This document shows, piece by piece, positions 1-21,300 of a stretch of DNA of 64,000 nucleotides (positions are counted from its first letter, which is position 1; each line of letters begins with the position of its first letter). The DNA is from Paramacrobiotus metropolitanus (Eukaryota > Tardigrada > Eutardigrada > Parachela > Macrobiotidae): contig NW_026570369.1 of assembly GCF_019649055.1 (NCBI RefSeq), forward strand, positions 230,914-294,913, read 5' to 3'. The position numbers and the translations under genes were made by a program. The notes below the pieces were generated by a model that was not told where the DNA came from, made no database searches, and was given only the letters and a program-made list of their open reading frames with translations.

Positions 1-454
1 TACTTGTGCTTGTCCGAAGAATGTGCTTGTCTGAAGCTCACAATGATTTCATTGTTTCGTGCGCTAATATTGTGAATCCCATAGGATCATGGAAAGCCAC
101 TCGCGATCGATGTTACATGCGTAGACACGTTAGCCGCAACATACATCGACCGCACCGCTGTTACAGCTGGAGCCGCTGCCGAAATTGCCGAGAACGCTAA
201 GCGACTCAAGCACGCTTGGCTATCTCCGTGATACAACTTTGCTGCTGCTGCGTTCGAAATATACGGCCCACAGGGTGAAGGCGCGAAAAGCCTAGGGGAC
301 CGTGTAGGGCGTGGGATCGCTCAGGCTACCGGCCAACCACGTTCCAAAGAGTTTTTCCGACAGCGACTGTCCATACAGATTCAAAGAGGAAACGCGCTTT
401 GCGTTATGGGCACCTTACCGGACACCGACGGCTTATCTGAAGTGTTTTTGTTGT
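1..454 (+). pseudogene. decayed 3' end of a retroelement reverse-transcriptase ORF
   Basis: Read in one frame from about 110 to the TAA at 452-454, this stretch gives a protein tail typical of reverse-transcriptase ORFs of animal retroelements. It contains GKPLAIDVTCVDTLA, then an Ala-rich helix with AENAKRLKHAWLSP, then IYGPQGEGAK, and finally RQRLSIQIQRGNA followed by CVMGTLP just before the stop. That order (a D-T-C-V-D-T-L-A block, an Ala/Lys helix, then an F-R-Q-R-x-S-x-x-I-Q-R-G-N-A block) is one I associate with RT proteins of aquatic invertebrates. The copy is dead: TGA interrupts the frame near 230, and a frame change near 95 separates the upstream block ending in PIGSW. The 5' part lies outside the window. 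The family assignment rests on recalled pattern similarity only. Confidence 0.5.
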
Positions 455-648
455 AATTTTGCTGTTGTGTTTTCGTTGTGATGCTGTTAGAACTTCATAA
501 ACTTAAGTTAAAATAGTACTACTCGAAACGCACTTTAGATGCGTTCTGTAACATACAGAGCCGAGATTTCTGTAAAAGTGAATCTACCAGTGGTGCAGGG
601 CTGAATCTTATGGAGCGTTACAGAGCAACGAGACCAATATTGTGAATG

Positions 649-877
649 CAAGCGCTCGATGAAGTCCTATGATCCTATGGCAGAAGGTTTTTAGATAATT
701 TACATTACATTATTAGCATTATAATGCTAATAATGTAATGTAAATTATCTAAAACTTTCATTATAATGCTACTAATGTAATGTAAATTACCTAAAACCTT
801 CATTATAATGCTAATAATGTAATGTAAATTATCTAAAGCCTTCTGCCATAGGATCATAGGACTTCACCGAGCGCTTG
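649..877. mobile_element. palindromic MITE with about 77-bp arms and 42-bp internal repeats
   Basis: The left end (649 onward, CAAGCGCTCGATGAAGTCC) and the reverse complement of the right end (to 877, CAAGCGCTCGGTGAAGTCC) match almost base for base for about 77 bp. The arms continue through CTATGGCAGAAGG and an AT-rich stretch to the palindrome CATTATAATG at 717-726. The CATTATAATG unit recurs at 759 and 801, a 42-bp period, so one arm has been expanded by tandem duplication. It has no coding capacity. No clear target duplication flanks it. It is best described as a foldback or MITE-type non-autonomous DNA element. Confidence 0.75.
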
Positions 878-914
878 GGCGCTTGGGTAACTGTGCCTTT
901 AAATCGCCAGTGCC

Positions 915-948
915 ATTTGGTTTCAGTATAATTATACTGAAACCAAAT
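915..948. repeat. perfect 34-bp palindrome between 12-bp direct repeats
   Basis: Bases 915-948 (ATTTGGTTTCAGTATAA and its exact reverse complement) form a perfect palindrome. It is flanked by the direct repeat GTAACTGTGCCT at 887-898 and 959-970. This looks like a tiny insertion or a perfect cruciform-forming site. Its function is unknown. Confidence 0.7.
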
Positions 949-970
949 TACGATGCGTGTAACTGTGCCT

Positions 971-2361
971 ACAGTCTCTTTTTCTGGCTTTCGTGCCCCC
1001 CGTGACGCTCCTATCAAAGAGCACTTGCTTCTGCGCCACAGACGTGTGCAATCAGCTCAGCCGGCGTCTGGGGGCATGGAATTATTACGAAGCTACACAG
1101 TACACACCATCAAGGCAATAAGACTTTGGGCCTGCTCAATCCACTGTTGCAGTATAGTATACCGGAAATGTGGAATAATTCCTTTTTTCCAGTTTGAATC
1201 GTTTACTAATGACACTGCATCTTTATTTTCATTGCGATAATGTAACGTGTGATTTGCTGTTCGTACTGGTATTTGTCGTAATGGTCTTGCATTTTCTGGT
1301 ATGTAAAGGTTACCAGAGTGTCTGGACATGGTTCAACGAAAATAACCGGCTCTATTTAAGTGGATATCTTGTGGCAACATTGAACAAAAATCAGCTTTTT
1401 CACGTGTGTAATCGGAAAAATCGTCCTAAAAGATAAACCGTGCGTCGCATGCTTTTGCATGCCGGGTTGCGGTGCCTTAAACGGCGGTAAGTAGCAGACC
1501 ATCCAACCGTTCCGGGATGAGGCCATCTGCACGGTACTGAATGAGAAAAATAATCTAAAGCACGCTGCACCGGCAACGCCAGCGCGTCGGGTTACTTATT
1601 TTTCGCGCATTGCAGAACCGAAGTGCCCGTTCACAACCTCTCACACAGTCTTTCGCTATGTCCACAACATTTCGACAGAACCATTGCGTATACTACCTTC
1701 TGCTCCGTTCAGAACCTTATTCGATATTTCTTTACTGACATTCAGTTACACCGAGACCGGAAACAGAACGCACAATCCGAGCTTCTAAGGTGCCTCAGGC
1801 ACCGCAAAATTGCAAAAAGCATTCATTACGATCTCCAATTCATAATTTGCTGCAACATCAACCAACTTTGGATCAAATTCTAAACCCACAAGAAACAAAC
1901 CTGCAAAACTGCTCGCGTTCGACGTTCGATTCCGCAGAATCGCAAAACTCCCGAATATAATATGCCCCGGCCAATTTGTTCACCTCCGAATATATTTACT
2001 CCAGAGAAACGGTTTACCAAAATACGCGCTCCTGCAACCTTCAATAAAACCTTGGGGCTCAAACGCTTCGTAAACTCACAGGCAGAAGCGTCTGGCGGAC
2101 GGTTCATCCGCCCGGACGATTTGCCGGTTACCTATACAGGCTACACCACAGAAAAACCTCGTACAGGACAGACCGTGTTTTTCAGTTTTAAGTGTTACAC
2201 TAGTATCCCGCGTCGTCAGCATTCCGAAGGTTGTCTCAGCTTTTCTTCCACAACAGTTAAAAGAGAAGCTGTGTCAAGTTTATGTGGAAAGCCATAAAGC
2301 CAATCTAATGTGGCTTGTAAGTATGCGCTAATCTATTCCAGCATCCAGCATAAGTGTCACG
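971..2361. other. region without a recognised gene, upstream of the transposase gene
   Basis: I find no ORF here with recognisable domains. The longest open stretch (1962-2297, plus, 111 codons) has no family signature and no convincing splice link to the gene that starts at 2362. The 5' terminal inverted repeat and promoter of the MULE-like element should lie here, but I could not find a long inverted match to the DNA downstream of 11444. Confidence 0.4.
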
Positions 2362-5300
2362 ATGGATGATCCCGGCTCTTCTGGTTTTGAGCCTGTGGAA
2401 CGGATTTCGGTCGGCCAGGAATGGCCAAACACGCATAGTTTGATGGAGTTCCTTGATTCGTATACTGGCAGAACGAAGCAAGTCTTCCGTAAAGGCAATA
2501 CGCAGTTCCGCTCGGACGCGCCAGGCGAATATCTCCGTCTGGAACTTTTGTGCGTACATGGAAAAAAAACTGGAGCGCGGAATCCTACAGAAGTTCGCCC
2601 AGTTCAGAACACCTTCCGAAAAGATTGTCCTGCCCGGATTGTTTTCTACTATAGCAAAAAAGAAAATTGTATTCACTGCACGCAGAGCTCTTTGGAGCAC
2701 AATCATGAATTGTTGGAGGCACTTCACTCCCATTATCCTTCTGTTCGACGATTATCAGCTACGGATCGTGAGAAGGCCAAACAGTTGCTACGCATGGGAA
2801 CGAACGTGAGCGCGATTGTTGCTTCTATGAAGCAGAATACTGGAAAAGATGTTCGCCCGAAGGACATTCACAACATTCGGACTCAAGATAAAGCAAAAAT
2901 CCGGGGCGCAAAATCGGATGAGGAGATTTTGCAGCAAGGCCTGCAGAACGCAAAAGAAACGGACCCCGGGTTGGAAATTAGGCACTCCACAAACGCAGAA
3001 GGTGGACTCGACGTGCTTGTTCTTGTAACAAGCAAAATGAAAGACACATTTGCTAGGTATTTTGTAAATGTCATAAGAGCAACCGTTTTCTTCCGTATAC
3101 ATGATTTGTAGTCCACTTTAACTTGCAAAGAAGAGTGGCTTCGCACTAGGCAGGCCCTGTTTTCAGAATTATGTATGATGCCATACTGTATTGCGAAGTA
3201 CGGAACACTGGACAAGGCAGTGTTCAGTACTGTTGTGCAACGCACCGCGACATTTCGTTGCGGGACGTTTTTTCGACAGGACATCACGCAGTGAGACATT
3301 CTCAACCGAACGCCGTGTGGGAGTTTCGACGATAAGACATTTTGCCCATCAGCGAAACGGGTCATTGCGCTTACAAAACGACCGAAAATTTAAAGAGTTA
3401 CTTACACCAAAGAATAAAGCATTTAAGAAAACACGACTAAAGACACAATAGACACAATATATGGAACAAAATACCTAAGAAACCAAACCAGATTCTTGAA
3501 AAATCCATGAAAAGCTAAGAACACCTAAAAAAACTAAGAAAGCTTAGAAAGGGTATGAAAATCTTAAAAAATCCAAGAAAGTCTAAGAATGACGCCTAAG
3601 TATAACCCAAGAAAAAGTTGAAAGAATCGGAAAGCTGAAAAATATATATGAAAGCCAAAAATAGAAAGCGTAAAAGCAACAAAACCTAAATGAAATCACG
3701 AACTTAACCTAAGAAGCCGAAAAAATGGCAAACATAAAAGAAAAAAGCCACAGTCTGGAAATGACGAGCGCATGTAAAACAGAGCGCGACGAAATAATTT
3801 GTGGCAACTTGTCGCATGATTTGGAAACACAAAGACAATTGTCCGTGCCGCAAGACGTGTGGTTTGTTTAGCCGATGGGAAATGTCTCAGAGCACGATGT
3901 CCTGAGCCGAAGTGTTCCAGCGTTTGTATGCCCGCGGCGAATTGTCTTCGCAGCGAAAGGTCAAGCATAGAAACTGAGTGCGGCAAAATGTCCCGCACCT
4001 AGTTGTTCTGAGTGCGGTTAACAAGGATACCCGTTACTGCCGTTTTCTCGCGGTAATGAAATCCAAAGCTACAGAAAAGTTTTCCATATCGCGGTCGTGA
4101 TAACACCCTTTCGGCAAAGGTTACGCGTACCATTCGGTCTTTAACGATTACTGGTTCACTTTCACTTTTCGATAAATCTTACCGCTTGAAAAAATTATTG
4201 AACCGCTTGACAACCAAGATGGATTACAGCTGTAGTTACACGCCACAGTATGGTTTAGCTATTAACTGCTTGATTTTAAAGTCGATTACAGTATCTTCGG
4301 GTAAATACTATCGAAAACGTTGGAAGGTGTGGAGAATGTCAGATTCAAAAACGTAAAACTCTGTTCGTTTCAAAACGCGCTCTACGCAGTCTTAATGAAA
4401 TCTGTAAATCTACCGGATGGTTTAAGTGCAAGCTGCGTACTGCAGCTTGAGCTCCCAGGACAGCGGGTATCTGCGGGGTGGAAACGTGGGAGGCAACAAG
4501 CAGCTCTTCAGCGCAAAATTCTTACTCAATTCTTTCACATTACGCTAAATAGCTGCACTGCTAGAACATTAGAGTTTTAATGGCAGTACTTATTAAACCA
4601 TGAGCTAGTTACCTAACCTATCTATTCAGATGTTGACTTTCCAGATAATTTAAATTAAACTATGATTTACAGATTTCCAGAAGTTTTGTTTATGGATGGA
4701 ACATACAATGTAACAGCTGAGCGGTACCCGTTGTACGTGTTAGCAGCGCAAGACAACAACGGCTATACTAGACCAGTTGCCGTCGGTTTTGTTACAAAGG
4801 ACAACAGCGAATTTATCGGAACTTTCCTAAGGTTGTTCAAATCAACGACTGCTGGCAAAAATGTCGCCCGTATATCAACAGTGTTCATAGATAAAGACCG
4901 CAAAGAAATGGCTGCACTTAAGGCAGAACTGCCGGGAGTGAGTGTGCTGTTGTGTTGGTTCCACGTGTTGAAGAGCATCAAGCTTGAAGTGGCGGCATCG
5001 TGTGAAACTGGAAAACGCAAAAAAGAAATGTTTGTTGCCTTTCAATCATTGTTGTACTCTAAATCAATGGACGAGTACCACGTCCGTCTCCAAAACTTTG
5101 GAAAAATCTGCACGGAGGAGTTTTATGAGTACTGCGCTCGCAACTGGTTTCCAGTTGTGGATATGTGGGCTTTTTACAAGCGAAAAGAAGTCCGCGCTTT
5201 GGGTAACAACACCACTAACCGTGTGGAGGCTCTAAATCGCGCGATTAAATTGGTCTTAAGGTGGGTGAACTGTAACAAAGGCATGATTTAAAGATCGTTA

Positions 5301-8300
5301 TTTGCAAGTAACGATTGTGTGACAATTATGTCAGTTTTCATCGACTTGCGTGCCCGAGTGCGCTATCCACGGTGACTAAAACAGTTAACCGTCTACGAGT
5401 TCACAACGGCAAGGCAGCCGGCTCGTCATGACGAACTGAATGTGCTGCTGATTTATATGTATAAGTTCACACCCCATCCCACTCGTGGTATCCGTTCGTA
5501 AACCACCGCCACTAAAATGATTAAATGCACATGTATTTGCACGGTGGAATTGCTGACAAATGCCCCTCTCTCTCCACGGTCGCCAAATTTACTCACAAAT
5601 ACACGGTTTCCGCCACCTCTGACATCATCTATGGGCCATTTCGTACCACCCTACAAACCGGGCCTTTTTTGGTCACCGTGTTCTATCTACTCTGACATAT
5701 GGAACGTGTACTCATGTCTGTATAATGCATTCAGTGTATTCTCTCCGTTATTTCGCTTGTGCAAGCGCTATGACTATAGCCGTTCGCAGTGTATTACCGC
5801 GTTCCATCGTCATGCCGGCTCAACCAAAGCCGGCTTTGCCGCGGCTCAAACGGCTTCGGCTGAGCCGTTACCATCTCTATGTTAGAGTACCTTATGACAA
5901 CCGACATGATCTCTTTACAGATCTGTACAGAGAACTAATATGAAGACCTGCGAAGCTATTTCAACACTTGTCCGTTTCCTGGTAATGGCTGATGCGTCGT
6001 CGTTGCACTCCGACTTTAAAAACGTTACCAAGATAACATACGTCAATTGTGCGGAATTCGGTGCAGAACTGGAGCGTGCCGGAAAACTCTTGACGGAAAG
6101 CGCTGTTCGCCTTCTTCACATTCAAATTAAAAAATTGAGGAGCGAAATAAATCATTATAACCTCCAAGAAGTCGATGAGGCAAACTGGACTCTTGCCAAT
6201 ACTCTTACGGATACGGTGTACATCATCCAGAGAGAACCTCAAGAGCAAGGCAGCGTCAGCGTTCAAAAGAGCGAAAGCCGACTAGTGTGCTCATGTTTTT
6301 TCAGCTGTACCTTTGGCTTGCCATGCAAACACGTCATGTACATCAGGGAAAAGACGTGTAACGCGTACATTCAGATCACGGACGCGATTGGTCGGTGGCA
6401 CCGTTCATTCTCTGGAGTTGATCCAGACTTTCTGCGCTCAGCAATCATAACTCATGCGGCATCTCATCTTGAGGATGACGACCTCGAAAACTTCGTGGAT
6501 AGTGAAGTGGGTATTAAATCTCCGCTACCACGCGAAGCCCGATTTAGCAAGGCGCTCAGTGTCGCGAAAGAAATCAGTTCCGGTATCGCAGTTTATGCGG
6601 GGAAGCGCTACGATGAATATCTGCACTTATTGCATATCCTGGAGAAAGCTATTAAAGATGGTGTTTTGGGTGAAAACATTACGATAACGGTAGCTACCTC
6701 ACCATGCCAGCAGTCTCTCACCAATTTTGCGTCGACGGTTTTACCAGAAGAGGAAACTGCCAGCCGTAAAGTTGATATGGTTGTGAATCTAGCCGCTGAT
6801 ACGGTTACAGAAAATGCAATTCCGACACTAACTTTTGTGGAAACAAGCGGTGAGGCTGACCACGGATTCGGCCAAGGTAATAATAACAGATCGAAGTTTC
6901 GTTAAACAAGGCTAATTCCGATCGAGAACAGCATGTTAGAAGCTCATAAGCTCATACTGGTAAGGTCGGTGCAAAGTAATGTATGTAATAATTATAAATT
7001 TAGCAGAAACGGGTGATGTGTTACGCCGTTCTTTAATAACTGCCTCGATAACTTTAAAGATGGCCGTTGGTGGCTCTGCGCTGACTTGGTTTTCTACTGT
7101 TTAGTGGGAAGATAGCTAGACAAAATTGTCGATCGCTTGCACAACTACTAACTGCTTTAATATTTTAAGTTAAGCAGAGCTCTCGACTGGTTTTGCTTGT
7201 TCAGTAACGCGGCTAAGAGGGAGATCCCCACTAATCGCGTTCTCTGAGAAGTTAGAACATTTTACTGTTGTAGCCAAAGTATGACCAAATACCATTACCA
7301 GGAGTTGTGGTAAATTGTCTAGCCTAGCATATCTGATATTTTTCAATGGGTAGGAAGACGTGGAAATGCAGTCTGGCCGGTTACTCGTTAAGCAACCACT
7401 TAGTGAGTCCATGTACAGTTATCGCAGATATCGCTCGCTCTAAGAACGCGCATCAAATGCTTTTCGAATTACTGTAAAGTGTAGTTACGCTAGCGCGGTT
7501 ACTTAACGAGGTCGCTTCAAAACGTGAAATGTTAGAGGTTTATTTCAACTGCGCCAGATTCGGGCTTCAATTCTCCACGTTCATAATCTTGAATTAAAAT
7601 CAGGGCGCGGTTGTGTTTGCCCGGCACCAGCTGGCTCCCATACAGAAGGTCACCAGACAAAACGTTTCTACTAATTATTGAACACTCATGACTTTTAATA
7701 CAGTGCCATCGAACTAAGACGGTTAAATAAGCGGTTTAAAGCGTTTATAATTTAACAGTCACAGCTGTTGCACTTAGCGTACCTTGCATATATTGTAGAG
7801 GCGACAACAAACAACACCAGCGAGGTGAAGACAGTGGCCAGCGAAGGTATCCTGGATCCGTTTGAAGCGATTCCTTTCAAACTCGTGGGCATGGCAATGA
7901 ACCCTCCGGGAAGACCTAAAGGAGGAAAAAGAAAAGTGAAGTTCAATACTCCTGGGAAAAAGACAAAAAAGACGCGCTACGAAACGGCGGTTTTGGTAAT
8001 AAAAAGCTGATTAGTAGGAACCGACAGGGCGGCGCAGATAAGTAAGGGAAATAATGAATTATCTGTTTACAGATCAGCGAAGATTTAGCACTGCCTTTCA
8101 CCTCCGGCATCGGTGGCAATTTAGCGAAATCGGATCTTGGAGAACGTATGCCAGTCGGTACAAGTAATTCAGACGAGGTTCAGGATGTCGATTTCACGAA
8201 AGATCAAATAGAATCCAACGCTCTGGAAGCCATAAAGCAACTGGCCAATTATTTTTCCACGAACGCGGTTCAGCGGGTAATAGCTATAGCGAAAGACCAC

Positions 8301-11300
8301 CCAACAACCAGGCAGAGCAGGGGGATGCTAAGGATAGAAGATCTGCGGAGGGACATCATTTATCCTACAGATGGTCACGGTTGGAGAATGTTTTTCCGAA
8401 CGTTGATAAACCTAGGGGCCATAGCTCATGGTATGATGGAGTGGACAGTCGTACAGCTATGGTATCAACAGGCAGCCCCCTTTGGTGTCGAGATTGGCGG
8501 TAAGCGTGAAAAAAATAGGTTGTTGTCGTGACAGCGTGACAAAAAAAGCCGAGGCTGTTTCTTGGCGGCCGAAGCATACCAAACGTCTCTATGTTCAGCG
8601 CTTATAAACCTTTGTGTCTATCGGTCACCGCCACCTAACGCCCATATGCCCGGCCTTCTTACTATTGTATGCACACATGTGCCCTGGCCGTATATACTAA
8701 CTATGGTGTCCACTGTCTACTGGACAGCGTCTCTCTTTATAAAGTGGTAATAAGCGCGGTAGCCATATACAAATGTTGTGCTGCCTACTGACGTTTCAAA
8801 GAAGTACCTTTTTCTGTGGTAGTTCTAGGTCAGCAGTTTCCATTCCTAATAATTTTTAAAGCACACGTAAAACGGCTGTGTTGTCACCGCCACCGCTACC
8901 CTATGTGAAAGGATGAAAGGGCGGTGTCCACTTATACTCGCCGCTTCAAGCAACAGTCGGTTTTTTTGGTTACCGATACGGCGGTATTCTCCTGTCATTG
9001 CGCTATTTGTTGCTGAAATGATTCTGAGTACTGGCACCGCTCATGATGTTACAGTAATGGTCAGAGAGCATGCCACGAAAGAAAACTTAACGTTACCCGA
9101 TTCGTGAAAAATGAAATTTGGAAACTGGATTAACGGTTGGCCAGCAACTCGTGTTTAACCGGTGGAGCCATGCAGGAAAGCGGCCAGCAGTTACCAAGAT
9201 ACTGGAAAACAATTGTTCGTAATGAGGTTTTCGCAGCGAAATACAGTATATTAGAACATGCAACATAAACAGCTGCATCGTCAATGATGCAGTTGTTGTT
9301 ACTCGTACTCATTCCCCTATCGGGCTGTGTGTCCAGAAAATTAGTGGTAATTTCATCTGACTTTTGTTTAGCCAGCTTTGTGACAGTTCGTTTCTCTAGC
9401 GGGCTCTGTGCACAAATACGTTCAATTGGCAGTTCGACCATTTACAGATTGTTTGTTGCTTGCGTATCGAGTGTCAGATATTGTATTGTTTTAACAGACT
9501 CATCTCTAACCAGAAACTGCAACTGGATAGCTTGCCAAGAAGTTAATTTAGGCTTGTGGCACTGGGCAGAAATCTTGGAAAAAGCTGGAGGTGGGTGGCT
9601 TGGCGAAACAACCATTACCGCCGCACTCAGGATTATGCATCATGAAAATCCACATGTTGGCGGATTTATTGACGTCGGTTATTTCAACACGTTCGAGCTT
9701 GAATCCAGCCCGCAACTGACCGCAGCTCAGATGGAGAGAGCGCGAGAAATCATAAAGGTCTGGAGAGAAAACGCTATGTTGCACTGGTTTGATCCCGATA
9801 AGTCAGATTCGAAGAAGATCCAAGTTCTTAACCGTGGCGGCAACCATTGGGTCACGCTTACTAACGTCCACAACGGACCCGAAAATTACGTTAATATCTT
9901 CGACAGTCTCATGATGTCTGTCACGACGTTTATGAAACAGGCCATTGCTTCGATCCTTCATCTTCCTCCCGCATTTGAAGATATCCGGTTGTACACGCCG
10001 ATGGTGCAACGACAACGAAACGGTAAAGACTGCGGAGTATATTCGATAGCTTACGGCGACCTCCTATGCAGAGGCCAAGATCCGACATATATGACGTTCG
10101 ACTTGCAGAAGGTAAGCTCTCAAACATGATGGTAGTATTGGCTTCCTGATCTGTGCGTTGTGTAAAGTCCAGAAAGGTTTCAACGTGTTTCAAAATCGGT
10201 TTTAGAGTAGCCGCTACACCACGCAATCGTTACGTACAATGGGCAAATGCAAAACTGAGTAGACGTCGGGCTAGAAGAGTTGCACAATTGGTTTTAACCG
10301 CTATATGTATTGGCCAGCGTTCACGCAGCTGTTCTGCGCATCGTACATCATTAATTTTTCTTCCGACATCACAGCAAACTATTTATTGCGTTTAGGTTTT
10401 GCACACGCAAAATAGAAAGTAAAGATGAGAAAAATATGCACGACACAATCCGGCAGGGAATCGGAATACCGTCTCGCTGCTCTATATGACCTTAGCAGTC
10501 TTCCGCAGACGCTATGAGCGGAGACAGTTTTAAAACAGCATATGTACTCGCATGTTGTGATGGGCACGCTGGTCGTCAATAAGTAATCTCATTACCGCTA
10601 GTTGGTTTTAAGCTGATTTGGTGCTTGTTCGTTGTTAATTGCTTTTCTAAAACTCAACGAGCCTCTCACATTTTTCATTTATATTTCTGCAATCGAACGA
10701 CGTCTCAGACAAGTCTACTACATAAAATTTTTAAAATTCTAAATATCATACTGCGCTCAATAAATTTGTTTTTACTATTTCCATGCCATTGACACCAACG
10801 GTAGATATCACAGAAAGCACGCTTCGTCTGTTTAAGTAAACGCACCGTCCTACGGATACAAGGCTCGTGTAAGGTCAATACTTGTGATATGCAGTGGCAC
10901 TACCGTTTGCGCAAAACGATGGCTACTTATATGTTTATCTTGCTGTCAATCTTACCTTGGAAAGGCAAAGATGGTCAAATGAACCATCTCGGCGTTAACC
11001 AAATAACAGCAACTTTAGCTGCGTTATGTGATACTGTTGCAGGATAGTGAGCAGCCGTTTGAGAAATGCCGAAATTATCTCGTTGAGCGGCTTGAAGCAG
11101 GATCGTTCAGCCAAGGTACCGGATTCCCGTCTGCTGCCGATCGTTCCTACAGCTGCACAATTCGTCCAAGCTGGGAAAAAGCCAAGATGGTCAAGATATA
11201 TTGCTATTGTCGTATGCCGAAGATGCCAACCGAATTTTTGGATGCCTTCCACACTGAACCAATGATCAAGTGCGCAAACAAGATGTGTGTAATCAAGCTC

Positions 11301-11444
11301 TTTCATCGTACTTGCGTAGAAAAACAAATGGATCCGCGACCATTGGATAAAAACTGGCTTTGCAACTTTTGCAAAAGCGACGAAAGCCTGACAGTTTCCG
11401 ATTTGGTCGAAAACTTGGATTTCGAGGAGATTGCCGAGCCGTAA
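2362..11444 (+). CDS. intact seven-exon MULE transposase-SWIM-Ulp1 protease-PHD fusion protein
   Basis: Exons are 2362-3056, 4673-5260, 5921-6876, 7799-7995, 8073-8499, 9498-10111 and 11043-11444. All six junctions use GT...AG and match in phase, giving one 1292-residue ORF without stops. The start ATG has A at -3 and G at +4. Domains in order: FAR1/WRKY-GCM-like zinc cluster (C64, C89, H113, H115); MULE DDE transposase (D240 in LFMDGTYN, D305 in VFIDKD, CWFH at 326-329, E417 in TNRVEALNR); SWIM finger (C551, C553, C563, H565); basic GRPKGGKRK stretch near 784-792; C48 Ulp1/SENP-like protease (H1071-W, D1090, Q1127, C1133 in KDCG); PHD finger C4HC3 (C1213 to C1269). DDE transposases cut and paste DNA. 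C48 proteases cleave SUMO-like proteins. PHD fingers read histone tails. Mutator-like elements carrying Ulp1 domains are known from plants (Kaonashi type); the PHD end is less familiar to me. It could be an active element or a domesticated gene. The domain calls are strong; the splicing is inferred. Confidence 0.85.
3430..3740. repeat. purine-rich degenerate repeats in intron 1 of the transposase gene
   Basis: Intron 1 (3057-4672, 1616 bp) contains an A/G-rich stretch in which units resembling AAGAAAGTCTAAGAA and AAAAATCCAAG recur irregularly. It holds no open frame. The other introns of this gene are 660, 922, 77, 998 and 931 bp and show nothing coding. Confidence 0.5.
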
Positions 11445-11906
11445 TCCGAGTGGTACGGAAAAGGTAGTTTGTTCAGTGGTTTTTTCTTTGGTTCGTGTCG
11501 TCCAAGGCTGTTACAGAATTTTTGTAACACTTTGTTGTGTTTCACTTTTTTTGGCTATCGAAATGTCCAGATGTGTATCCGGGATCTGTTTCGTTTCTTT
11601 TGTATGAAGCTTTTTTTATTGGCATGTTCTTCTATGACAGCGTCATCACTACATCCACATTGAAAGTAGTCCATTGCGTAGATGCTGGACGCCTGACGTG
11701 GTTGCATTTCGTCCCAGAATTACTGCTATACATAGCATTAAAGGAAGCAGCAGCAGTTATCGCGTTCGAGTTTTCTTAATCGTGATTAAAGATATGTTAC
11801 CGAATTTTTCTCATAAAATTGACCTTTCATCACTAACGCCATCCATTCAGAAAGGTTTATCCTTGCTGCCAGATAATCAGAACAACCAACAATTCGCTAC
11901 TAGTCT
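11445..11906. other. 3' flank of the transposase gene, no gene seen
   Basis: This AT-rich DNA after the TAA at 11442-11444 probably carries the 3' UTR of the transposase transcript. The short open frames here have no domain signature. Confidence 0.4.
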
Positions 11907-12330
11907 TTGGTAGTCACTCACCCACAAGAGGCTGAGGTGAAAATGGATTGAGGTGGAACTATCACCGTGGTAGTACGGCTAATCACTCAGCTGAGGTTCT
12001 GTGCAACAGAAAGGTCACTGATTTCCTAGCAGCTGCGTTTGCTGAGCAGTGGCAGCAGCTCGGTCAAGAACTTTCTTTAACAGTTTTATTTGCTAGGCAA
12101 AACTGATGACTCGGACACTCAATTCCTTACGGGATCTGTGCACTGGACAATAGAGAATGCTAGTCACTCATTCACCTAACGGGCTCTGCATTAGATAGTT
12201 GGTAGATTTGGTTACTCAGTTGCCTAACGACCTCGGTATACTGGGCAGTAGTTGTGCAGTTACTCACTAGCCTAATCCACTCTTTGTACTTAATAGTGTT
12301 GTCAAGTCGGTTGCTCATTTACCTAACGGA
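11907..12330. repeat. degenerate ~50-bp spaced repeats downstream of the transposase gene
   Basis: A motif like TTACTCAnTTnCCTAACG recurs about every 50 bp: near 11912, 11980, 12112, 12163, 12214, 12259 and 12309. Examples are TCACTCATTCACCTAACG, TTACTCAGTTGCCTAACG and TTGCTCATTTACCTAACG. Subterminal repeats of this kind are common in Mutator-like elements as transposase binding sites. I found no inverted partner upstream of 2362, so their link to the element is inferred. Confidence 0.45.
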
Positions 12331-12570
12331 GTACATGAATTGTATTACATAAAATCTGTAATTCTGTCATTCTTTCATTGGACGGAGGTGTTAGTTCGGA
12401 TGTTCGGGCATTCTCGCACGTACCGGGCTTTTTCGCTGCACGGTAGTGGTAGTTCGGTATTTGCTCACGTGCAGTACTTCTGCTCGATGGCAACCCAGGC
12501 AGCGGTAAACATACGGGCAATTTCTTATATGAGGGGATGTCGGTAGTGTATGTACCATTAATAATGTAAT

Positions 12571-12694
12571 GTACTAAATAATCCCTGTACTTTCTGCTGC
12601 TGCTGCTTTCTGCGGCGCGGTACATAAGCACCATGCACAGCCACGCCAAAGTCGGGCCGGCTGACGTCAGCAAGTGCAGGGATTACTTAGGTAC
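12571..12694. mobile_element. ~124-bp MITE with ~22-bp terminal inverted repeats
   Basis: The left end GTACTAAATAATCCCTGTACTT pairs with the reverse complement of the right end, GTACCTAAGTAATCCCTGCACTT, apart from one extra base and two substitutions. The interior is GC-richer and contains a CTG run. There is no coding capacity. This is a small non-autonomous inverted-repeat element. Confidence 0.6.
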
Positions 12695-12741
12695 TGAAAT
12701 CCCTACATTTACTTGAGCAATTACAATATTATATAATACTG

Positions 12742-12863
12742 TGGGATTGCTGCGCAGTGTATTGGATTTTTATATACAGAGTGTATATTCCGTACAACGT
12801 ATTTACAATGTATTAGTATGCAGAACGTATACTAAAAACCCAATACACTGCGCAGAAACCCCC
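12742..12863. mobile_element. ~122-bp inverted-repeat element
   Basis: TGCGCAGTGTATTGGATTTTTA (from 12751) and the reverse complement of the sequence ending at 12855 (TGCGCAGTGTATTGGGTTTTTA) match except at one base. A short G-run lies outside each arm. It sits just after the previous MITE, so two unrelated small elements lie next to each other. Confidence 0.6.
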
Positions 12864-13163
12864 TATGCTGGACTTTAGTGAACAGTTGTGACTTGTAATG
12901 TACAGACCATGAAGAAAGAAAGGACCTAAACTTTCGTAAACCTTTTTTTAGTTGGTTTACATGGCAACATTGTTTGGTTAAAAAGCTATGACGATTTACG
13001 AAGTGGCTATGCGCAGGAGTATCGTACTGCGGTGCTGTTCTGCGCATGGTACGTTACATAGCAACCTTTAATACCGTACAACAGTAAAGTAAAGTGCAAC
13101 CGTACCGTACTTGCATGACAACGGGTGCGACCAACATGTTTTCCATCGCTATTACAAGCAAAA

Positions 13164-13888
13164 GCCGGGAACGGCACAGCCGGGAACGGCACAGCCGGGA
13201 ACAACACAGCCGGGAACGGCACAGCCGGGAACGGCACAGCCAGGAACAACAGCCGGAACAACACAGCCAGGAACAACGCACAGCCGGGAACGGCACAGCC
13301 GGGAACAGCACAGCCAGAACAACTGGCCAGGAACAACACAATAAGGAACGGCACATCAGAACAACACAACAACTGTCAGACAACACCGGGAACAAACACC
13401 GGAACAACGCACAACGGGGCACACCGGAACGGCACAGCCAGGGAACAACTGCCGGGAACAACGGCAGGAAGGCAACAGCCAGGAACAACACAATGGGGAA
13501 CGGCACAGCCGAACAACTGTCAGGGACAACACAATAGGAACAGCACAGCCGGGAACAACTGTCAGGAACAACACAATAGGAACAACTGTCCAGGAACAAC
13601 ACAATGGACAACAGCCAGCCGGCACAACCGGAACAACACAACCGGGAACAACACAGCCGGAACGGCACAACCGGGAACAACACAGCCGGAACAACACAAC
13701 CGGGAACAGCACAGCCGGGAACAGCACAATAGGAACGGCACAGCCGGGAACAGCACAGCCGGGAACAGCACAACCGCGGCACAGCCGGGAACGGCACAGC
13801 CGGAACGGCACAGCCGGGAACAACACAGCCGGGAACGGCACAGCCGGGAACGGCACAGCCGGGAACGGCACAGCCGGGAACGGCACAA
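13164..13888. repeat. 15-bp minisatellite, CCGGGAACGGCACAG and CCGGGAACAACACAG variants
   Basis: About 725 bp is built of 15-bp units that switch between GGAACGGCACAGCCG and GGAACAACACAGCCG, with occasional deletions and hybrid units in the centre. Because the unit length is a multiple of three and contains no stop in either orientation, several frames on both strands stay open for long distances. Translations are Pro-Gly-Thr-Ala-Gln, Arg-Glu-Arg-His-Ser or Asn-Gly-Thr-Ala-Gly repeats on one strand and Cys/Val/Pro repeats on the other. I read these as chance ORFs, not genes. Uniform units at both ends and degenerate ones in the middle suggest expansion at the edges. Confidence 0.9.
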
Positions 13889-13940
13889 TTTATTCGAATA
13901 GAGTGTTTGACAAATTAGCTAACGGCTATACTGCGGACTA

Positions 13941-14070
13941 TACTGGGGCAAAATAGCTGAAGGCTATTTTAGCGCAGTGTGGGGCAAAATAGCAAAAGGC
14001 TATTTTGCCCCACATACTGGGGCAAAATAGCCAAAAGCTATTTTGCCACAAACACTGGGGTAAAATAGCC
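13941..14070. repeat. tandem hairpins GGGGCAAAATAGC / GCTATTTTGCCCC
   Basis: Three to four units of roughly 45-55 bp each contain the inverted pair GGGGCAAAATAGC and GCTATTTTGCCCC separated by 4-6 bases (for example CAAAAG). Each unit could fold into a near-perfect hairpin. The array abuts the minisatellite. It holds no gene. Confidence 0.7.
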
Positions 14071-14309
14071 ACTTCGGAACTATCGACGTTTTCAATCAAT
14101 CCGCACCAGACTGAACTAATCACAGATTGGCAAAATCCTCCCATTCCGTACTCTGCCGGCAGCTAATGGTAAATTCTTGTACCCTGAAAATTAACGTAGG
14201 AAACACTACGTTTCCTACTTATTTGCATCTCTAATGCTAGACCACAGTGTGATCCAGATACAGAGACCTAAACGGAATAGATCCTGCGTAGCGAGCAATG
14301 CTGTAAGTA

Positions 14310-15240
14310 CAGAGGGTGAGCCACCCACATTGGCACACTGCACGAACTCATTTTTTAAAACTTCCTTTCGTCTACAACAACTTTTTCAAAAACATTACCC
14401 GATAGCCTGGGTATTTTGTACTTGATAAATTAATCTGAGCTTAGTAAAGGATGCCTTTCAAAATCCAGGAAGAAAAACCTGGAGCGGGGTAGTAAAACAG
14501 TGCACTTCAAAACTGGAATGCCTTTCGCAAAACAAATCCTAAAAATCCCCCTTTACCGATCAGTACATACGAAATGCATTAAAGTGTTAAAGAATCAATG
14601 CTCTTTAAGACAAGTGTAATTCGGTTTTGATCAAAGCCACGGTTGAGTTTTTCTAGGCGTCGGCTCCCAAAACTGACCGGAAGTCCAGAAAACATCTGCC
14701 ATTCTCTAACAAATAGTCCATTCGTCCTGAATTTCATAGAATATCTTCTACAAGCCTGTCTAAATAAATATTTGTTTATATCAAAGCGAAATCGGCATCG
14801 GCGGTTTTTTTGTCACGAGTTTCCCACTGCAAAGGCCAGCCGCTTCATTGAAAGTGTAAATCCCCAATTTTTTAATACTTCTGTTTTTCCCTCAGGATCC
14901 TGAAAAGGTTTTCACACAACATTATACTTTTTCATATAGCCCTTAAAATCTTCTAAAATTAGGAACTGAATGTGACCAAAAAAATGCTTGCTTCATTTAA
15001 TAATCATTTAAAAACAAAAATACAAAGTGAAACGTTTTGTCTGCGTTTTTTTCGCCGGTCGCGGACACTTGTGGTCACTTTATGCCACGTGTGCGCAAAA
15101 TCTTCATGGAAAATTAGTTGTTTTCCGTTCACAGAGAGCTAAGGGAAAAAACTGCATCAGCGGATTTAGCAGGACTTGAGTCCAAAAGTCACAAATAATT
15201 TCCTACCAAAAGTGTGCCAATGCGGGCGGCTCACCCTCTG
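14310..15240. mobile_element. 931-bp non-autonomous Tc1/mariner-like element with 29-bp TIRs
   Basis: The left terminus CAGAGGGTGAGCCACCCACATTGGCACAC starts at 14310 and matches the reverse complement of the right terminus (ending 15240) at 27 of 29 positions. TA flanks each end (14308-14309 and 15241-15242), the target duplication of the Tc1/mariner superfamily. The interior has no transposase ORF, so it would need enzyme supplied in trans. The sequence GCGAGCAATGC occurs on both sides, at 14291 and 15245, so the pre-insertion site held a short tandem duplication. Confidence 0.75.
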
Positions 15241-15242
15241 TA

Positions 15243-17411
15243 TTGCGAGCAATGCAATAACACACGACGCTCACACAGCTAATTGCCAACTTTAATAATA
15301 TTGAAATTTCCGATAACAGAAAATCAACACTGATCGATGCAGCTCGATCATCGATCGGAGAGCCAAATCAACACTGCTCAGCACGTGCGCCATGCCGCGC
15401 CCACTAACAAAACACAAGCCAATCAGAAGCGAGACACAACACAGACACGTAATCCGATGGCGCAGCGCCTGGCGCCACAGGCGTGAACGCTAGTGATCCC
15501 TCGCCTCACACATCTTTATATTGAAATAGAATAAATTAATATACGTGTTCCCTAACTGGACGACATAATAATCCCTTCGTGCTTCAGTGTCTCCTTAACT
15601 CAAATAAATAGAGATTACTCCATACCGGCATTGTGCCTGCGCAGATGATACGTCTTTTTGAAATTTCTTCTTTTTGGTTTTCCTAATATACTTGTATGTG
15701 AATCTGTTCCTGTCCATCTGTTATAGGGAAGCATTCGTCAGGTAGAAATCTCGAACCCAAGCCGGGGATACCGATAAATCTTAACCGAATGAACTGGAAA
15801 TCGCTGATAGTTTCCGCATTACTAACATGAAAGAATTTTTAGTAAGTACAGCGAATAGAGATGACTGGTTGTACAGCAGCCGTGCATGCAGCCAATAGCA
15901 GCCACCTTTTAATCCCAGAGCCTAAAATCTTCAAAATCTATGTGAGCACACTTAATTTCGCAAAGAGGGGGGTATTGATTATTTGCTCTTTATTTTCATA
16001 TTGGCTGAAATTGTCATCACTCAGGAGATTGTACACGTTGGCAAATTTACAGAAAATTTTATAGGAATGCCTACCCAGTAAAACTGGCATTTAATACAAA
16101 AAACACGAGTTGTGAGATAGTTGGAGTTGTTAGTTTTTTTGTGCAAGAGTTCTGTAAGTACGACAGCGGATGTGTTTTTCTTTTTTCGCTTATCCCTTGA
16201 GTCCGAATCGAGGCCTCGCGCGAAGCGCGAAGCCGACGTTGCTTTTTGAACAGGAATTACAAGAAAATCAATAAAATTAAGTTATTTATTCCGAACTATT
16301 TCGGGTTTGTCAAATTTGTTCAACACTCGTCTATGAAACTAGCGAAGCGTTTTGTGTTGCGATTCGTTTTGCCCCGAACTCTTAACATGGCAGGGGCTGC
16401 ATTGATGACCTTACGGCTGACATTCAGCAACGGTGTAAGTTTTGGACCGGGCGAACTGGTCTTTGATAAAGATGAAGTAAACTAAGATAACCACGAGCTG
16501 AATCGCTAAGATACTCTAATGGTTGACTAAGATCACAAGTGCTACAAGTAGAGACTGTAAAAATATCGACCAGTAGAGAGATATATGCGCCAACACCCAC
16601 CACGTTTAAACGTTTTCAGTTACTGGGAGATTGGCCAGTAGACATTGGGAAAGTTTTTAAGTAACCACACTTCCACAATTTCTGGCGCTACATAACTCAA
16701 ATGCACAATAGCGCATTGCAGCATTTGTTGAACTTAATAATAATGCTGTTTCGCAGGGTAAATCCAAAAGCGGAAATGAGAAAAAAGTATTATAAATGTG
16801 GCTATTGTTTCCATTACGCAGATGGCATTCCCTATTTAACTCTATCGGTAAATGGACAATTGTTGCTGGTACAGCTACTAGAATACCGCATGTCTAGCCG
16901 AAAGGGGCGTTCTATCAAATGACCACCAGATCATCCCGTGAAAGTTGAAGCACACAATGCTTGTACATCAAATGACACAATCAAAGCAAGCAAATACCGT
17001 ACGTGGCTTGTGTAAATCTTTAATTTTCCACCTGATTCTGCCAACTGGAGGTCAAATATAAGAACGCAGCTGTTTCTCTGAGTTCGCTGATTAAAGATTT
17101 ATTTTTCAGTATTATACGACCCTATGCACTCTACTAACTGCGCACGAAAGTCATTTATACAAATGCTATTTGTATAAACAGCGCGCGTAGCACTATTGAG
17201 CATGTAAGCTGTGCATCGTCAGAAGTGTGGTTACTAAGTATAAAACATGCCGTCTGCCACATCTCCCAGTGGAAGGTAACGTGACACGCATTGGCTTATA
17301 GCTTTCACTTGTTTGTTCGTGAAATCTTTTGCACTCTTAAAACAATTAGAAGCCGGTTAATTACACAGAAGGGGGACTATTGCTAATTTTTAAGCACAAG
17401 TTGCGATCTAG
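15243..17411. other. 2.2 kb without a recognised gene
   Basis: This is mixed AT-rich sequence. The subregion 15300-15520 is locally GC-richer, with repeated GATCGATC-type words and a CCAATCAGAAGCG box, and could be an old element remnant or a regulatory patch. The open frames at 16246-16485 and 16701-16922 show no domain and no splice partner. I cannot assign anything here. Confidence 0.35.
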
Positions 17412-17534
17412 GTGAGCACATGCACCTTTATGTGAGCACATTTTGTGCTATGTGAGCACAAGTTTTTAGGCCCTGTTTAATCCGGTTGCGCAACCGGCTA
17501 TACGGTATGTCAAAGAGGGCTATACGGTATGTCA
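17412..17534. repeat. short tandem repeats with exact 20- and 22-bp spacing
   Basis: GTGAGCACA occurs at 17412, 17432 and 17452, exactly 20 bp apart, with an imperfect dyad TGTGnnCACA. It is followed by GGCTATACGGTATGTCA at 17496 and again at 17518, 22 bp apart. The array could be small satellite seeds or clustered protein-binding sites. Confidence 0.55.
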
Positions 17535-17603
17535 TGTCTTGCGTGTACAGAGATATGCCAGTGCACCACATCATGATTGCGCAATAAAATTCGTGACGGT
17601 GAA

Positions 17604-18002
17604 GATTTGACGCTGGCCCATAGACACATATGCTATAACTCAAATTTTCAAAAATTCATAACTTTGTTAATTTTCGCGTTAATGTTTTTTGAATATGCTT
17701 TAAAAATACAGAATAATATATACTAGTAGGCATAACAAATGTTTTTTCGATTTTATTTTAGGGTTGCGCACTATGTGCCTACGTAATTAGCATGGCTGTC
17801 TATGGAGAAGTCATTTAATTTGATTTAAAGATTTCTCGTAGGCGGCTATGTTAACCACGTATGCTCTCAGTGCCAAACCTTAAGACGGAAACAGAAAAAA
17901 AATCGTTTTGCCTAATAGTAGATATTATTCTATATTTTTAAAGCATACTCACAACGAAATTAACGTTAAATTTAATTAAGCATATGTATCCAGCGTCAAA
18001 AT
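17604..18002. mobile_element. ~400-bp foldback element with ~110-bp imperfect inverted arms
   Basis: The left arm starts GATTTGACGCTGG and the right arm, reverse complemented, starts GATTTTGACGCTGG. Similarity continues through ACATATGCT, TTAACGTTAATTT-like and TATGCTTTAAAAATA blocks to CTACTAGTAGGCA-like sequence about 110 bp inside. The centre carries GCACTATGTGCCTACG. It has no coding capacity. Confidence 0.65.
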
Positions 18003-18362
18003 CAATATTGCATCATGACACTATCTCTACACGTCTTGCTTGTTCTCCGGTAGACTTGTACTGCGTACGAACACGTACTGTACCGCTTTTCCGCGAATCC
18101 TCAATGGATAGTACAGCAATTACCATTCTTTTATAACAGGGTACGCACATTCTGTGAATACAAACTACCCTAGTGCGGATAGATGCCTTTATGTTGGTGG
18201 TTGAGCTAACTCAGCCACGTTTCCAGTTGCGAACTACCCAGTCTTCTGACTACTTTACGTTTTAAGTTTCACGCTCCGATCTACATTAATTTACCTAACC
18301 TCATCGTAACCGTGTGCATTGTAGAAGACTGATTTGCCAACATATTCCCTGATTTCTCCACC
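18003..18362. other. upstream region of the BTB-Kelch gene
   Basis: This is noncoding DNA just before the start codon at 18363. The ATG lies in TCCACCATGG, close to the ideal animal start context. The core promoter is not identifiable with confidence. Confidence 0.4.
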
Positions 18363-21300
18363 ATGGCCAAGCCTCGTGCGCGCCCCAAGAAGTCAAAGCC
18401 CGCGCGTCAGCAACAGCAGAAGCCAACGACTATGCAGCTGCGAATTGGTAACGCGACATTATCCGTCAACAAAGATGCTCTTATCCGGGGATCCCCGTAC
18501 TTCGCCGCCATGTTGGACGGGAATTTCCAGGAGAGCGGCGCCGCCAGTATCGAGCTGCAACAACCCGAGAACGTCCATCTTCAAACGCTGGTCAAACTGG
18601 TGGAACACCTGAGTCGTGGAGACTCAAAGCCCACGTTGTCGGTTGAACGCAAGGACGCCGTCAAAGTGTGGATGGCCGCCAAATACCTGCAAATGGATGA
18701 AGCGGTGGAAATGGCCGAGGATATCCTGCGCGAGATAATGGAGCGATCAGGGAACCTGTACCGCCTGTGGCGTCTGGCTCGTCGGGACGGACTGATGGAT
18801 TTGGAGAGAATGACCTTTAGGGAGATTGTTCAGCACCATCCACGCCGCACCTTTTTTACCGATTCCGATGAGTTTCTTAAGTGCAGTGCCGAAGAGATCA
18901 AGGACTTGCTGACCGATGAGGAGTTTGTGCCAGAATCAGAAGCAGCTGTGTATCAGGTTAGCGTGCTTTATGGAGCAGAATTAACTTAGATGCCAAATTT
19001 GTAAGTAACAATTTTCGTTTATATAAATATTATTAAATACGTTTTGATAAATGATCAAGATTTAAAAAGAATATGCCTAATTATGAGTCAGAATAACAAA
19101 TTTCGATATATTCAACTCACCTTAAACTACTGTATGTGTGTAAGCGTGGCGATTACGATGCACAGAAGTGCGAAGGAAATGCGACCGCGCTACCAAACAA
19201 ACTTTATTAAAAATGACGATTTTTAATAAAGGCAAGGTGCCCAACAAAATCTACACCATCCGCAGGATGGGAATCTGCCCAGAAGGGAAACAGAGAGGAA
19301 AACACTGTCGACTAGTCAGGATATTCCTGGCTAGGAGAAGGCAAAATCACGGAATGAGACTGTGTATTTTAATACACAGTCGAATATCGGAAAAAACAGA
19401 CCGGAGAGACGGTGCGGCATCCACGCAGCCCCACTATCCTGGGCGGTGGCACCGGCCTCCTAGCATGTCTGTAATTTTCTAATATTGTATTGGATTATCT
19501 GAATGGAGGAAAGTATCGTTTCAGTTAAAACTGCTAAACTGCATAGTGTATACTCGTTCCACATTCGCAGGCTGTGTTGCGTTGGTGCATGCGCGACCCC
19601 AAGGGGCGCAAACAGCACCAGCATCAGCTGCTGGATGAGTGCTTAGTCTGGGATCATCTGGACATGGAGTCTCTGAAAGCCTCCTCCTCGGGGCCTTTGA
19701 ATAAAGCGTTGACCCAGATTCTCGACGATCGACGCCACGGTCTGATGGGCGGTGGACCGTCGCTGAAGCGGGCCATTCCGACAGAAGTCATCTTCTGCCA
19801 CATGCGCCAAGGACATCCGCATCAGCTCCTTCGCTTCGACTTCATCCGCAACGAACTGACCAAAATGGATTCACCGCTGCAGGCGACACTGGCCGAATGC
19901 GGGTCCAAGCTCAAAGCGGACGGTTTTGCGGTGGCCGTGGGACGTGAGCTGATCGTCGCTACTGGAGATTCATGTGAGAAACAGGTGATCGCGATGGACT
20001 GTATCACCGGCAGCACACGTCCTGTCGTGGTGAATTCGCCGTTTCTTGCGACCTTGTGCGTGGCGGCGGTGGGAGACCGGCTTTACCGTGCTTGTAGAGC
20101 TAGTGGAGACGGCGAAAATTGGTACTGCCACGATATGCCCACTGGAAAAGTGCGTCGGGTCGGACAGATCCCGTTTTACACGTACGAGAAACATGGATTT
20201 GCCTTACGGTATAATCGGTGAGTTTGTTCCTCAATCTTGGTGCCTTCTTTCCATTTCGATATTTGTTAAGCAAAACTACAATGGACTTCAAAATTTTGTT
20301 ACACTCACAAAACGCGCGCAACCAGCTGTTTATCTGTACTCAATCAGCCAAATTCCGGGCTGGCCATCGGCCTGTTGAGTTCGAACACTTGCACCTCACG
20401 CATTTCCCAACAAAAACCATCCACCGATATCTCAAACGAAAGAGAAAAAAATTTTATGAATTTTGATACCAAACAAGTTAGCTTTTATGGGATCTGACAG
20501 AAAATCGACGCATCTAAAGTTTCTCGTAGACAAAGCATAGCATTTGAATCCACGGTTTGGTTTCAGTTTTCACACAGAAAACGTATGCTCTGTCTACGAG
20601 AAACTTTAGATGCGTCGGTTTCTGTCCCATCCTGTTTCGTATCAAAATTCATGAAATTTTTCTCTTTCGTTGAGATATCGATGGTGTTGGAAAATGCGCA
20701 AACAGCAAGTGTTCAAATACTGCGCGTTTCCAGTTTATTGGTCATTTGGTCTTGGCCATTTATTTCTATTGGTCATTCGGTCCCGGACCGAATGTAACAA
20801 AATTTTGAAGTCCATTGTAATTTGTAAGTTATTAAATTACCGATAACCGGATATTTAGTGGAGTGTTTTTGCTATCTCAGTTTGCTTTGAGCAAAATAAT
20901 ATTATGTACAGATGGAAAATTAATACAAGTCATTTTATGACCGCTTATTGTGGATCGGCCAATTTACCTTTGCCGTTTCAGTCTATCTTTTTCGAGTTTA
21001 CCTTTACCACCGCCAAATTGTGCCTGCTGCCGTAATCGGTGTCGCATTCTTTGTGCACGAAATAAGAATTGTACTGTTCTAATTATTTCGTAATCGCATC
21101 TTATTTGACATATTTTTCGTAGTGATGCTATGCAGGCCTTCGCGCTCCCCAACGGCCGAATCTGGTTCCTGTCGGTCGGATCCGTGGACGAGAAGCACGA
21201 TAACCACCCGCAGAGTTGCGTGGAATCCTACGACATCCACAGCAACACGTGGAAGAACCATGCCAGCTGGACAGATAAAGACATATTCCATCATGACAGC

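Follow-up and report, generated by a model that had tools for sequence, protein, structure and literature searches.

A Mutator-like transposon of a tardigrade with a transposase, an Ulp1-like protease and a PHD-type finger in one predicted protein

The gene and the ends of the element

The DNA analysed here, called the window, is a stretch of 64,000 nucleotides from the tardigrade Paramacrobiotus metropolitanus (GCF_019649055.1, NW_026570369.1, 230,914-294,913 forward, equal to C149:230914-294913). Near its start lies a gene of seven exons housed within a transposon, and one spliced mRNA most likely makes one protein of 1292 residues from it. We interpret the whole as very probably an autonomous animal Mutator-like (MULE) DNA transposon, in which a single protein would carry a transposase, an Ulp1-like protease and a PHD-type finger. 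Copies elsewhere in the same genome are referred to as C13, C27, C31, C41, C48, C1a and C1b. Wnt matches mark this genome as an animal's; searches of it for TTR-52 and for an SL1 pattern found nothing, although TTR-52 gave no hit in any control either. The features in the window are as follows.

1..14076, forward: Mutator-like transposon, the part within the window (terminal inverted repeats and 9-bp duplication)
2362..3056, forward: exon 1, N-terminal FAR1-like zinc cluster, residues 1-231 (FAR1 E 0.0016 and ZSWIM3_N E 0.0013, both below cut-off; C41 80% identical)
4673..5260, forward: exon 2, MULE DDE core with D240 (codon 4695-4697), D305 and E417 (MULE E 1.8e-13, ZSWIM1-3_RNaseH-like E 5.2e-26; C41, C1a, C1b and C31 have their splice sites at the same positions)
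5921..6876, forward: exon 3, helical part, SWIM-like CxC-x9-CxH (residues 551-565) and start of the linker (motif in the model and also in the C41 and C1b models)
7799..7995, forward: exon 4, basic stretch with AT-hook-like PPGRPKGGKRK from residue 782 on (the C41 and C1b models have a comparable stretch; AT-hook named by eye)
8073..8499, forward: exon 5, linker (52% identity to C41 across 125 residues; C41 and C48 share the position of donor GGTAAGC)
9498..10111, forward: exon 6, C48/Ulp1-like protease domain with H1071, D1090, Q1127 and C1133 (Peptidase_C48 E 1e-5; the four residues invariant in the window, C41 and C1b)
11043..11444, forward: exon 7, end of the Ulp1 domain, PHD-type zinc finger (C4HC3) and stop codon (ligands invariant in the window, C41 and C1b; ING PHD E 7.7e-4, Pfam PHD E 0.8)
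13163..13887, forward: minisatellite (unit 15/30 bp), immediately internal to the 3' terminal repeat (window copy)
13902..14076, reverse: 3' terminal inverted repeat of 36-38-bp units (from comparison of the ends)
14077..14085, forward: 9-bp target-site duplication GAACTATCG, its second copy lying directly before the element, outside the window (from comparison of the ends)

A first-pass annotation, made from the letters of the window, had joined seven exons into one open reading frame of 1292 residues, and this has held: from the ATG at 2362 to the TAA at 11444, a single frame is kept by 48 combinations of GT/AG choices near its borders. Our preferred model (3879 nt, 1292 residues) has six introns, all GT-AG, of 1616, 660, 922, 77, 998 and 931 bp in phases 2, 2, 1, 0, 1 and 0. 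Donors 7996 and 8500 were chosen because a donor stands at the matching place in C48 for intron 4 and in both C41 and C48 for intron 5. For introns 1, 2, 5 and 6, C41 and the C1a/C1b/C31 group have donors and acceptors at the corresponding positions or close by, in some cases a few bases away; for introns 3 and 4, C48 has a matching donor and acceptor, and C41 and C1b have sites near the matching place. Joined at the homologous junctions, C41 gives 8 open models of 1292-1305 residues and C1b gives 5 of 1317-1361 residues, with the exact intron 3 and 4 junctions varying among the open models; a wider splice search gave 16 and 260, respectively.

Pfam was run on a 1292-residue variant with donors 7990/8506, in which a few residues differ from the preferred model at two junctions. 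Matches above the curated cut-offs were ZSWIM1-3_RNaseH-like (PF21056, 5.2e-26), MULE (PF10551, 1.8e-13) and Peptidase_C48 (PF02902, 1e-5), and C41 also matches Peptidase_C48 (1e-7). D240, D305 and E417 are assigned by motif as the acidic triad of the MULE core. The MULE DDE core and the C48 protease with its H, D, Q and C, both named in the first-pass annotation, are thus borne out. The SWIM consensus is CxCx(n)CxH, a pattern followed by CxC-x9-CxH at residues 551-565. The eight ligands of the PHD-type finger in the window protein are C1213, C1215, C1236, C1241, H1247, C1250, C1266 and C1269, and these, like the four Ulp1 residues, are invariant in all three aligned copies (window, C41 and C1b).

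The ends were found by comparison, including 8 kb of sequence upstream of the window, and place the whole element, with the gene inside, from C149:230232 (window -681) to window 14076, a length of 14,758 bp. This complete transposon around the gene, with its terminal inverted repeats and 9-bp duplication, is a context absent from the first-pass annotation. Its terminal inverted repeats, at window -681 and 13902-14076, match each other over 129-143 bp at 80-84% identity. Exact 9-bp duplications flank five of the six measured copies (GAACTATCG in the window, AAAACTTTA in C41, CTTAGATTT in C1a, ATAAAATAT in C1b and ATAAGTAAA in C31), in keeping with the MULE superfamily, whose target-site duplications are of 8-11 bp, mostly 9 bp. 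The direct repeat around the window element is in fact 15 bp (ACTTCGGAACTATCG, L015 7304-7318 and window 14071-14085), because in the 5' flank the 9-bp duplication is directly preceded by ACTTCG, the six bases with which the element itself ends; this may be coincidence or reflect a preference for targets that resemble the ends.

Related ends are spread through the genome. A 22-bp end motif, allowing up to two mismatches, has 153 genome matches, 78 of them forward and 75 reverse, while the reversed pattern has none, and a 182-bp end has at least 94, a lower bound because 40 of 175 candidates were scored. Some end pairs are closely spaced, such as C1:3059186 and C1:3060437, and point to short relatives that are non-autonomous.

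Copies in the genome and selection on the protein

A search with exon 6 DNA reached five places, namely the window itself, C27 (86%), and C48, C13 and C41 (77% each). Peptide searches gave 31 genome matches for the Ulp1-PHD part, including C1 (two copies, C1a and C1b), C31 and a finger-only match on C189, and 55 for the DDE-SWIM part. Within the stretches read, all seven exons occur in the same order in C41, C1a, C1b and C31, while C48 holds exon 3 (in part) through exon 7 and C13 holds exons 6-7. The C27 copy (L001/L002) shows no exon 1 and contains stops; from a point inside exon 3 onward, and including a terminal repeat, it lies in inverted orientation to its 5' part. In C1a, ~1.4 kb has been inserted into exon 3, the borders of the insertion overlapping by 8 bp, and C31 has stops in exon 6. 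C1a and C1b are ~99.6% identical over 20 kb and C31 is ~98.5% identical to both, with differing flanks; near-identical copies in different flanks are what recent transposition would be expected to leave.

The first-pass annotation had proposed looking for such copies and comparing their divergence. We estimated the ratio of nonsynonymous to synonymous divergence (dN/dS) from Nei-Gojobori counts. Between the window and C41 (1189 codons) dS is 1.61 and dN 0.17, a ratio of 0.10 that is rough, as are those for the parts, since dS is high: 0.06 for exon 1, 0.08 for DDE and SWIM, 0.23 for the linker, 0.16 for Ulp1 and 0.06 for the PHD exon. Against C27 (1039 codons) the ratio is 0.22 overall, with 0.15 for DDE and SWIM, 0.43 for the linker, 0.12 for Ulp1 and 0.15 for the PHD exon. 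Both overall values are well under 1, and by these counts selection has preserved the protein sequence of each domain since the window, C41 and C27 diverged. Purifying selection is meant here in the transposon sense, in that the lineages that moved retained all parts. C13 and C48 differ by 6.0 synonymous and 2.0 nonsynonymous changes over 335 codons, too few to say much.

Other structures were seen in and around the copies. Near the 3' end of C31 (L014), an internal stretch of 1,172 bp has the opposite orientation to its counterpart in C1a and C1b, with ~99% identity. C48 (L005/L006, oriented 14576-18218) contains a stretch of ~3.6 kb absent from C13, with 42-bp arrays near both ends and a 9-bp border overlap, which resembles a nested element. 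Within the window element, positions 649-877 form a small inverted-repeat unit with 43-bp arms around three 42-bp tandem copies, resembling a nested small transposon. Downstream of the element, window 18333-25592 has frames that by eye resemble BTB/Kelch proteins.

Weighing the readings, and known relatives

Taken at the level of sequence, the transposase core, the protease and finger residues, the terminal inverted repeats, the 9-bp duplication and purifying selection on each domain together argue for the autonomous MULE. Several points weigh against it. The splicing is read from comparison of copies. The FAR1 (0.0016), ZSWIM3_N (0.0013) and PHD (0.8) matches fall below the Pfam cut-offs, and Pfam, searched up to E 1, listed no SWIM match for the window protein; of the FAR1-like cluster and SWIM finger put forward by the first-pass annotation, a subthreshold match and a motif are what stands. 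C13 has both ends without an exact 9-bp duplication, and just exons 6-7 were detected there. The dN/dS of C1a/C1b is 0.91 and that of C1b/C31 is 0.87, ratios not used in our argument because frameshifted stretches are counted in, and dS is saturated between the window and C1b, as it also is between C41 and C1b.

The element could instead hold two genes on the same strand, a MULE transposase in exons 1-3 and a separate Ulp1-PHD protease gene in exons 4-7. Intron 3, of 922 bp, lies in the linker, the least conserved part; in C13 the Ulp1 and PHD exons are open although no MULE exons could be detected; and a methionine in exon 4 (KLV.MA) is matched in the models of C41 and C1b, so that translation could start in exon 4. 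Nonetheless, exon 3 of the window reaches its donor without a stop and C41 and C1b also allow a phase-compatible junction of exons 3 and 4, and we regard two genes as unlikely. The broken copies could suggest a dead fossil whose frame is open by luck, as C27 is inverted with stops, C31 has its exon 6 stops, C1a its exon 3 insertion, and C48 and C13 are without 5' exons in the stretches read. Yet the breaks differ among copies, contrary to the damage at one shared site that the first-pass annotation took as a sign against function, the window, C41 and C1b all give open joined models, and the window-C41 dN/dS is 0.10, which together make a fossil very improbable.

A host gene that merely resembles a transposon would also explain an intact frame and a low dN/dS against C41, whose exon 6 DNA is 77% identical, and the first-pass annotation had considered domestication on account of the missing stops. 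This is the least probable of these readings, and scarcely to be expected: the ends have been retained rather than lost, with inverted repeats, an exact target duplication, several insertions in different flanks and 153 end motifs. Domestication is not supported, because the gene still sits inside a transposon with its own ends. We therefore favor a transposon under transposon-level selection over a domesticated host gene, because of the inverted repeats, the duplications, the 153 end motifs and dN/dS values of 0.06-0.23. The other half of that proposal, recent activity, gains indirect support from the exact 9-bp duplications, the inverted repeats, the ~99.6% identity of C1a and C1b in different flanks and the end motifs.

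Within the autonomous MULE reading, the N-terminal zinc cluster and the AT-hook-like stretch would bind the 36-38-bp units in the element ends, and the DDE core would cut and join DNA. The Ulp1 domain may take SUMO or a SUMO-like tag off host proteins at the element or the break, or off the transposase itself; the PHD-type finger may serve as a protein contact, with a histone tail or another partner, that places the protease or the insertion. A role of protease and finger in transposition is what we infer from this arrangement. Chromatin reading by the finger, as the first-pass annotation envisaged, is doubtful. A profile of three copies (window, C41 and C1b) compared with solved structures found the ING2 PHD best (7.7e-4) and SENP2 (0.0065), weak matches on the expected parts; WRKY protein rows from the same search (0.0076, 0.0077) were taken as chance. 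In ING PHD fingers, a tryptophan before FH and an Asp after the third ligand have a role. The WFH of ING is LFH in the window and C41 and YFH in C1b, and the CDN is CAN or CAS in the copies. A classical methyl-lysine cage is not evident, because the tryptophan is replaced by Leu, Leu and Tyr in the three copies. The eight invariant ligands and the weak likeness to ING fingers speak for a PHD-type finger; the Pfam score of the window protein is subthreshold, and Pfam, searched up to E 0.1, listed no PHD domain for C41. At the two ING positions the window protein has Leu and Ala.

Transposons of this kind are already known. Bao et al. 2010 report Ulp1 in Mutator (MuDR) elements of hydra and lancelet, citing Repbase Reports, and list Ginger1-9_HM with Ulp1 and PHD in Table 1 (PMC2836005). 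According to its legend, their Fig. 1e aligns Ulp1 and PHD domains from transposases of Ginger1 and Mutator, of which the Mutator rows may carry PHD (PMC2836005). The first-pass view that the animal form with PHD was poorly described was therefore too strong. As described there, the hydra and lancelet elements share with ours an animal Mutator element bearing an Ulp1 protease (PMC2836005). Plant Ulp1-bearing MULEs, cited in the same paper for Arabidopsis, maize, rice and melon, likewise join MULE and an Ulp1-type protease, and differ in their hosts and in that PHD is unmentioned for them in the passages concerned (PMC2836005). Ginger1 shares the C-terminal Ulp1 and PHD; it differs in its Gypsy-type integrase and a 4-bp rather than 9-bp target-site duplication (PMC2836005). 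Pfam gave no row for rve, the Gypsy-type integrase core, in the window protein. The closest Pfam match of the DDE core is to ZSWIM1/ZSWIM3 proteins (PF21056, 5.2e-26), from which the window protein differs in its acidic DDE triad by motif, its place inside a mobile element and its Ulp1 and PHD-type parts.

Compatible with the autonomous MULE reading, the element may be classed in the Repbase Rehavkus group rather than an ordinary MULE group, a placement we consider possible and do not favor. Rehavkus, in the description of Dupeyron 2019, has a PHD finger, a 9-bp target-site duplication, terminal inverted repeats of 26-400 bp and a minisatellite before the 3' repeat (PMC6446971), all of which the window copy resembles. 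The minisatellite is not family-wide here, however: no such array lies between exon 7 and the 3' repeat in C41, C13, C1a, C1b or C31. Moreover, neither Ulp nor protease occurs in the main text of that paper (PMC6446971), and the comparison is by description, not transposase sequence. Tandem repeats in inverted termini are described for Rehavkus-1_TC of Tribolium (PMC10218199). The terms PHD, Ulp, protease, SWIM and OTU are all absent from the main text of a 2026 arthropod MULE survey (PMC13359780), and a further paper is relevant here for Caenorhabditis MULEs only (PMC10015627). A literature search joining Peptidase_C48 with MULE and transposon turned up no paper. The tardigrade element is a new family with clear ends, among transposons of a known kind; the first-pass observation is confirmed and its interpretation partly supported.

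The Ulp1-PHD cassette and its meaning

Beyond the MULE family, Ulp1 followed by a CxCRMP finger occurs at all five further loci read (C84, C58, C1:4.43 Mb, C419 and C245), and weaker Ulp1-PHD peptide matches outside these include C35, C252, C55, C175, C475 and C14. Matches to rve, the integrase core, accompany the cassette at C245 (1.2e-7) and C419 (1.1e-4), both below the Pfam cut-off. C58 has an integrase-like frame by eye that is not recognised by Pfam, and none was seen by eye in the 9 kb read at C84 and C1:4.43 Mb, which are near-copies of one another. The MULE and Ginger-type loci have in common the Ulp1-PHD order, the CxCRMP start of the finger and an FPS linker motif. It is possible, and we put it forward tentatively, that the Ulp1-PHD pair is a portable cassette shared by exchange between one MULE lineage of this animal and Ginger-type integrase transposons. 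Against exchange, both transposon types could have got the cassette from a common or similar cellular source.

A phase-0 intron lies between Ulp1 and finger at a matching place in eight of the eight junctions inspected outside the MULE family (two each at C84, C58 and C1:4.43 Mb, and one each at C419 and C245). We dropped this intron as proof of exchange with Ginger; because a host SENP-like gene on C5 carries a phase-0 intron at the same place (INFDH|TNMPYF), it may be inherited from a SENP-like gene. In a tree of Ulp1 domains, Ginger rows group at 98/98, MULE rows at 76/87 and host rows at 72/39; the tree, unrooted and with long host branches, neither shows nor excludes exchange. MULE relatives of 24-34% identity on C19, C68, C181, C50, C139 and C76 gave no cassette match at E 0.001 in a genome search that may miss weak ones. 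That on C50 (L023:4749-7277) has an 843-residue frame with DDE and SWIM-like parts and an unassigned C-terminal domain with a Q..NNCGVY motif; we do not claim the latter as Ulp1, with no Pfam C48 row and an hhalign probability of 9.5%. No viral relatives of the cassette were confirmed in IMG/VR, where 217 stretches fitted a pattern.

The cassette is doubled at C58, C84 and C1:4.43 Mb. There the second Ulp1 has NSG or FSA for DCG, an apparent pseudo-protease beside an active-looking one.

L021 3614-4333, reverse: doubled Ulp1-PHD unit, second Ulp1 without catalytic cysteine
L020 7035-7535, forward: doubled Ulp1-PHD unit, second Ulp1 without catalytic cysteine
L022 2468-2866, reverse: doubled Ulp1-PHD unit, second Ulp1 without catalytic cysteine

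If the exchange between MULE and Ginger-type elements did take place, two unrelated transposase types would have adopted the same module of SUMO removal and protein contact, which would point to a host barrier common to them that DNA transposons have to overcome. In the tardigrade element we have a complete animal MULE whose ends and target duplications are measured and of which three copies give open joined models; its protease and finger exons are clearly constrained alongside the transposase core. With it, the suggestion cited in Bao et al. that Ulp1 domains take part in transposition (PMC2836005) becomes testable.

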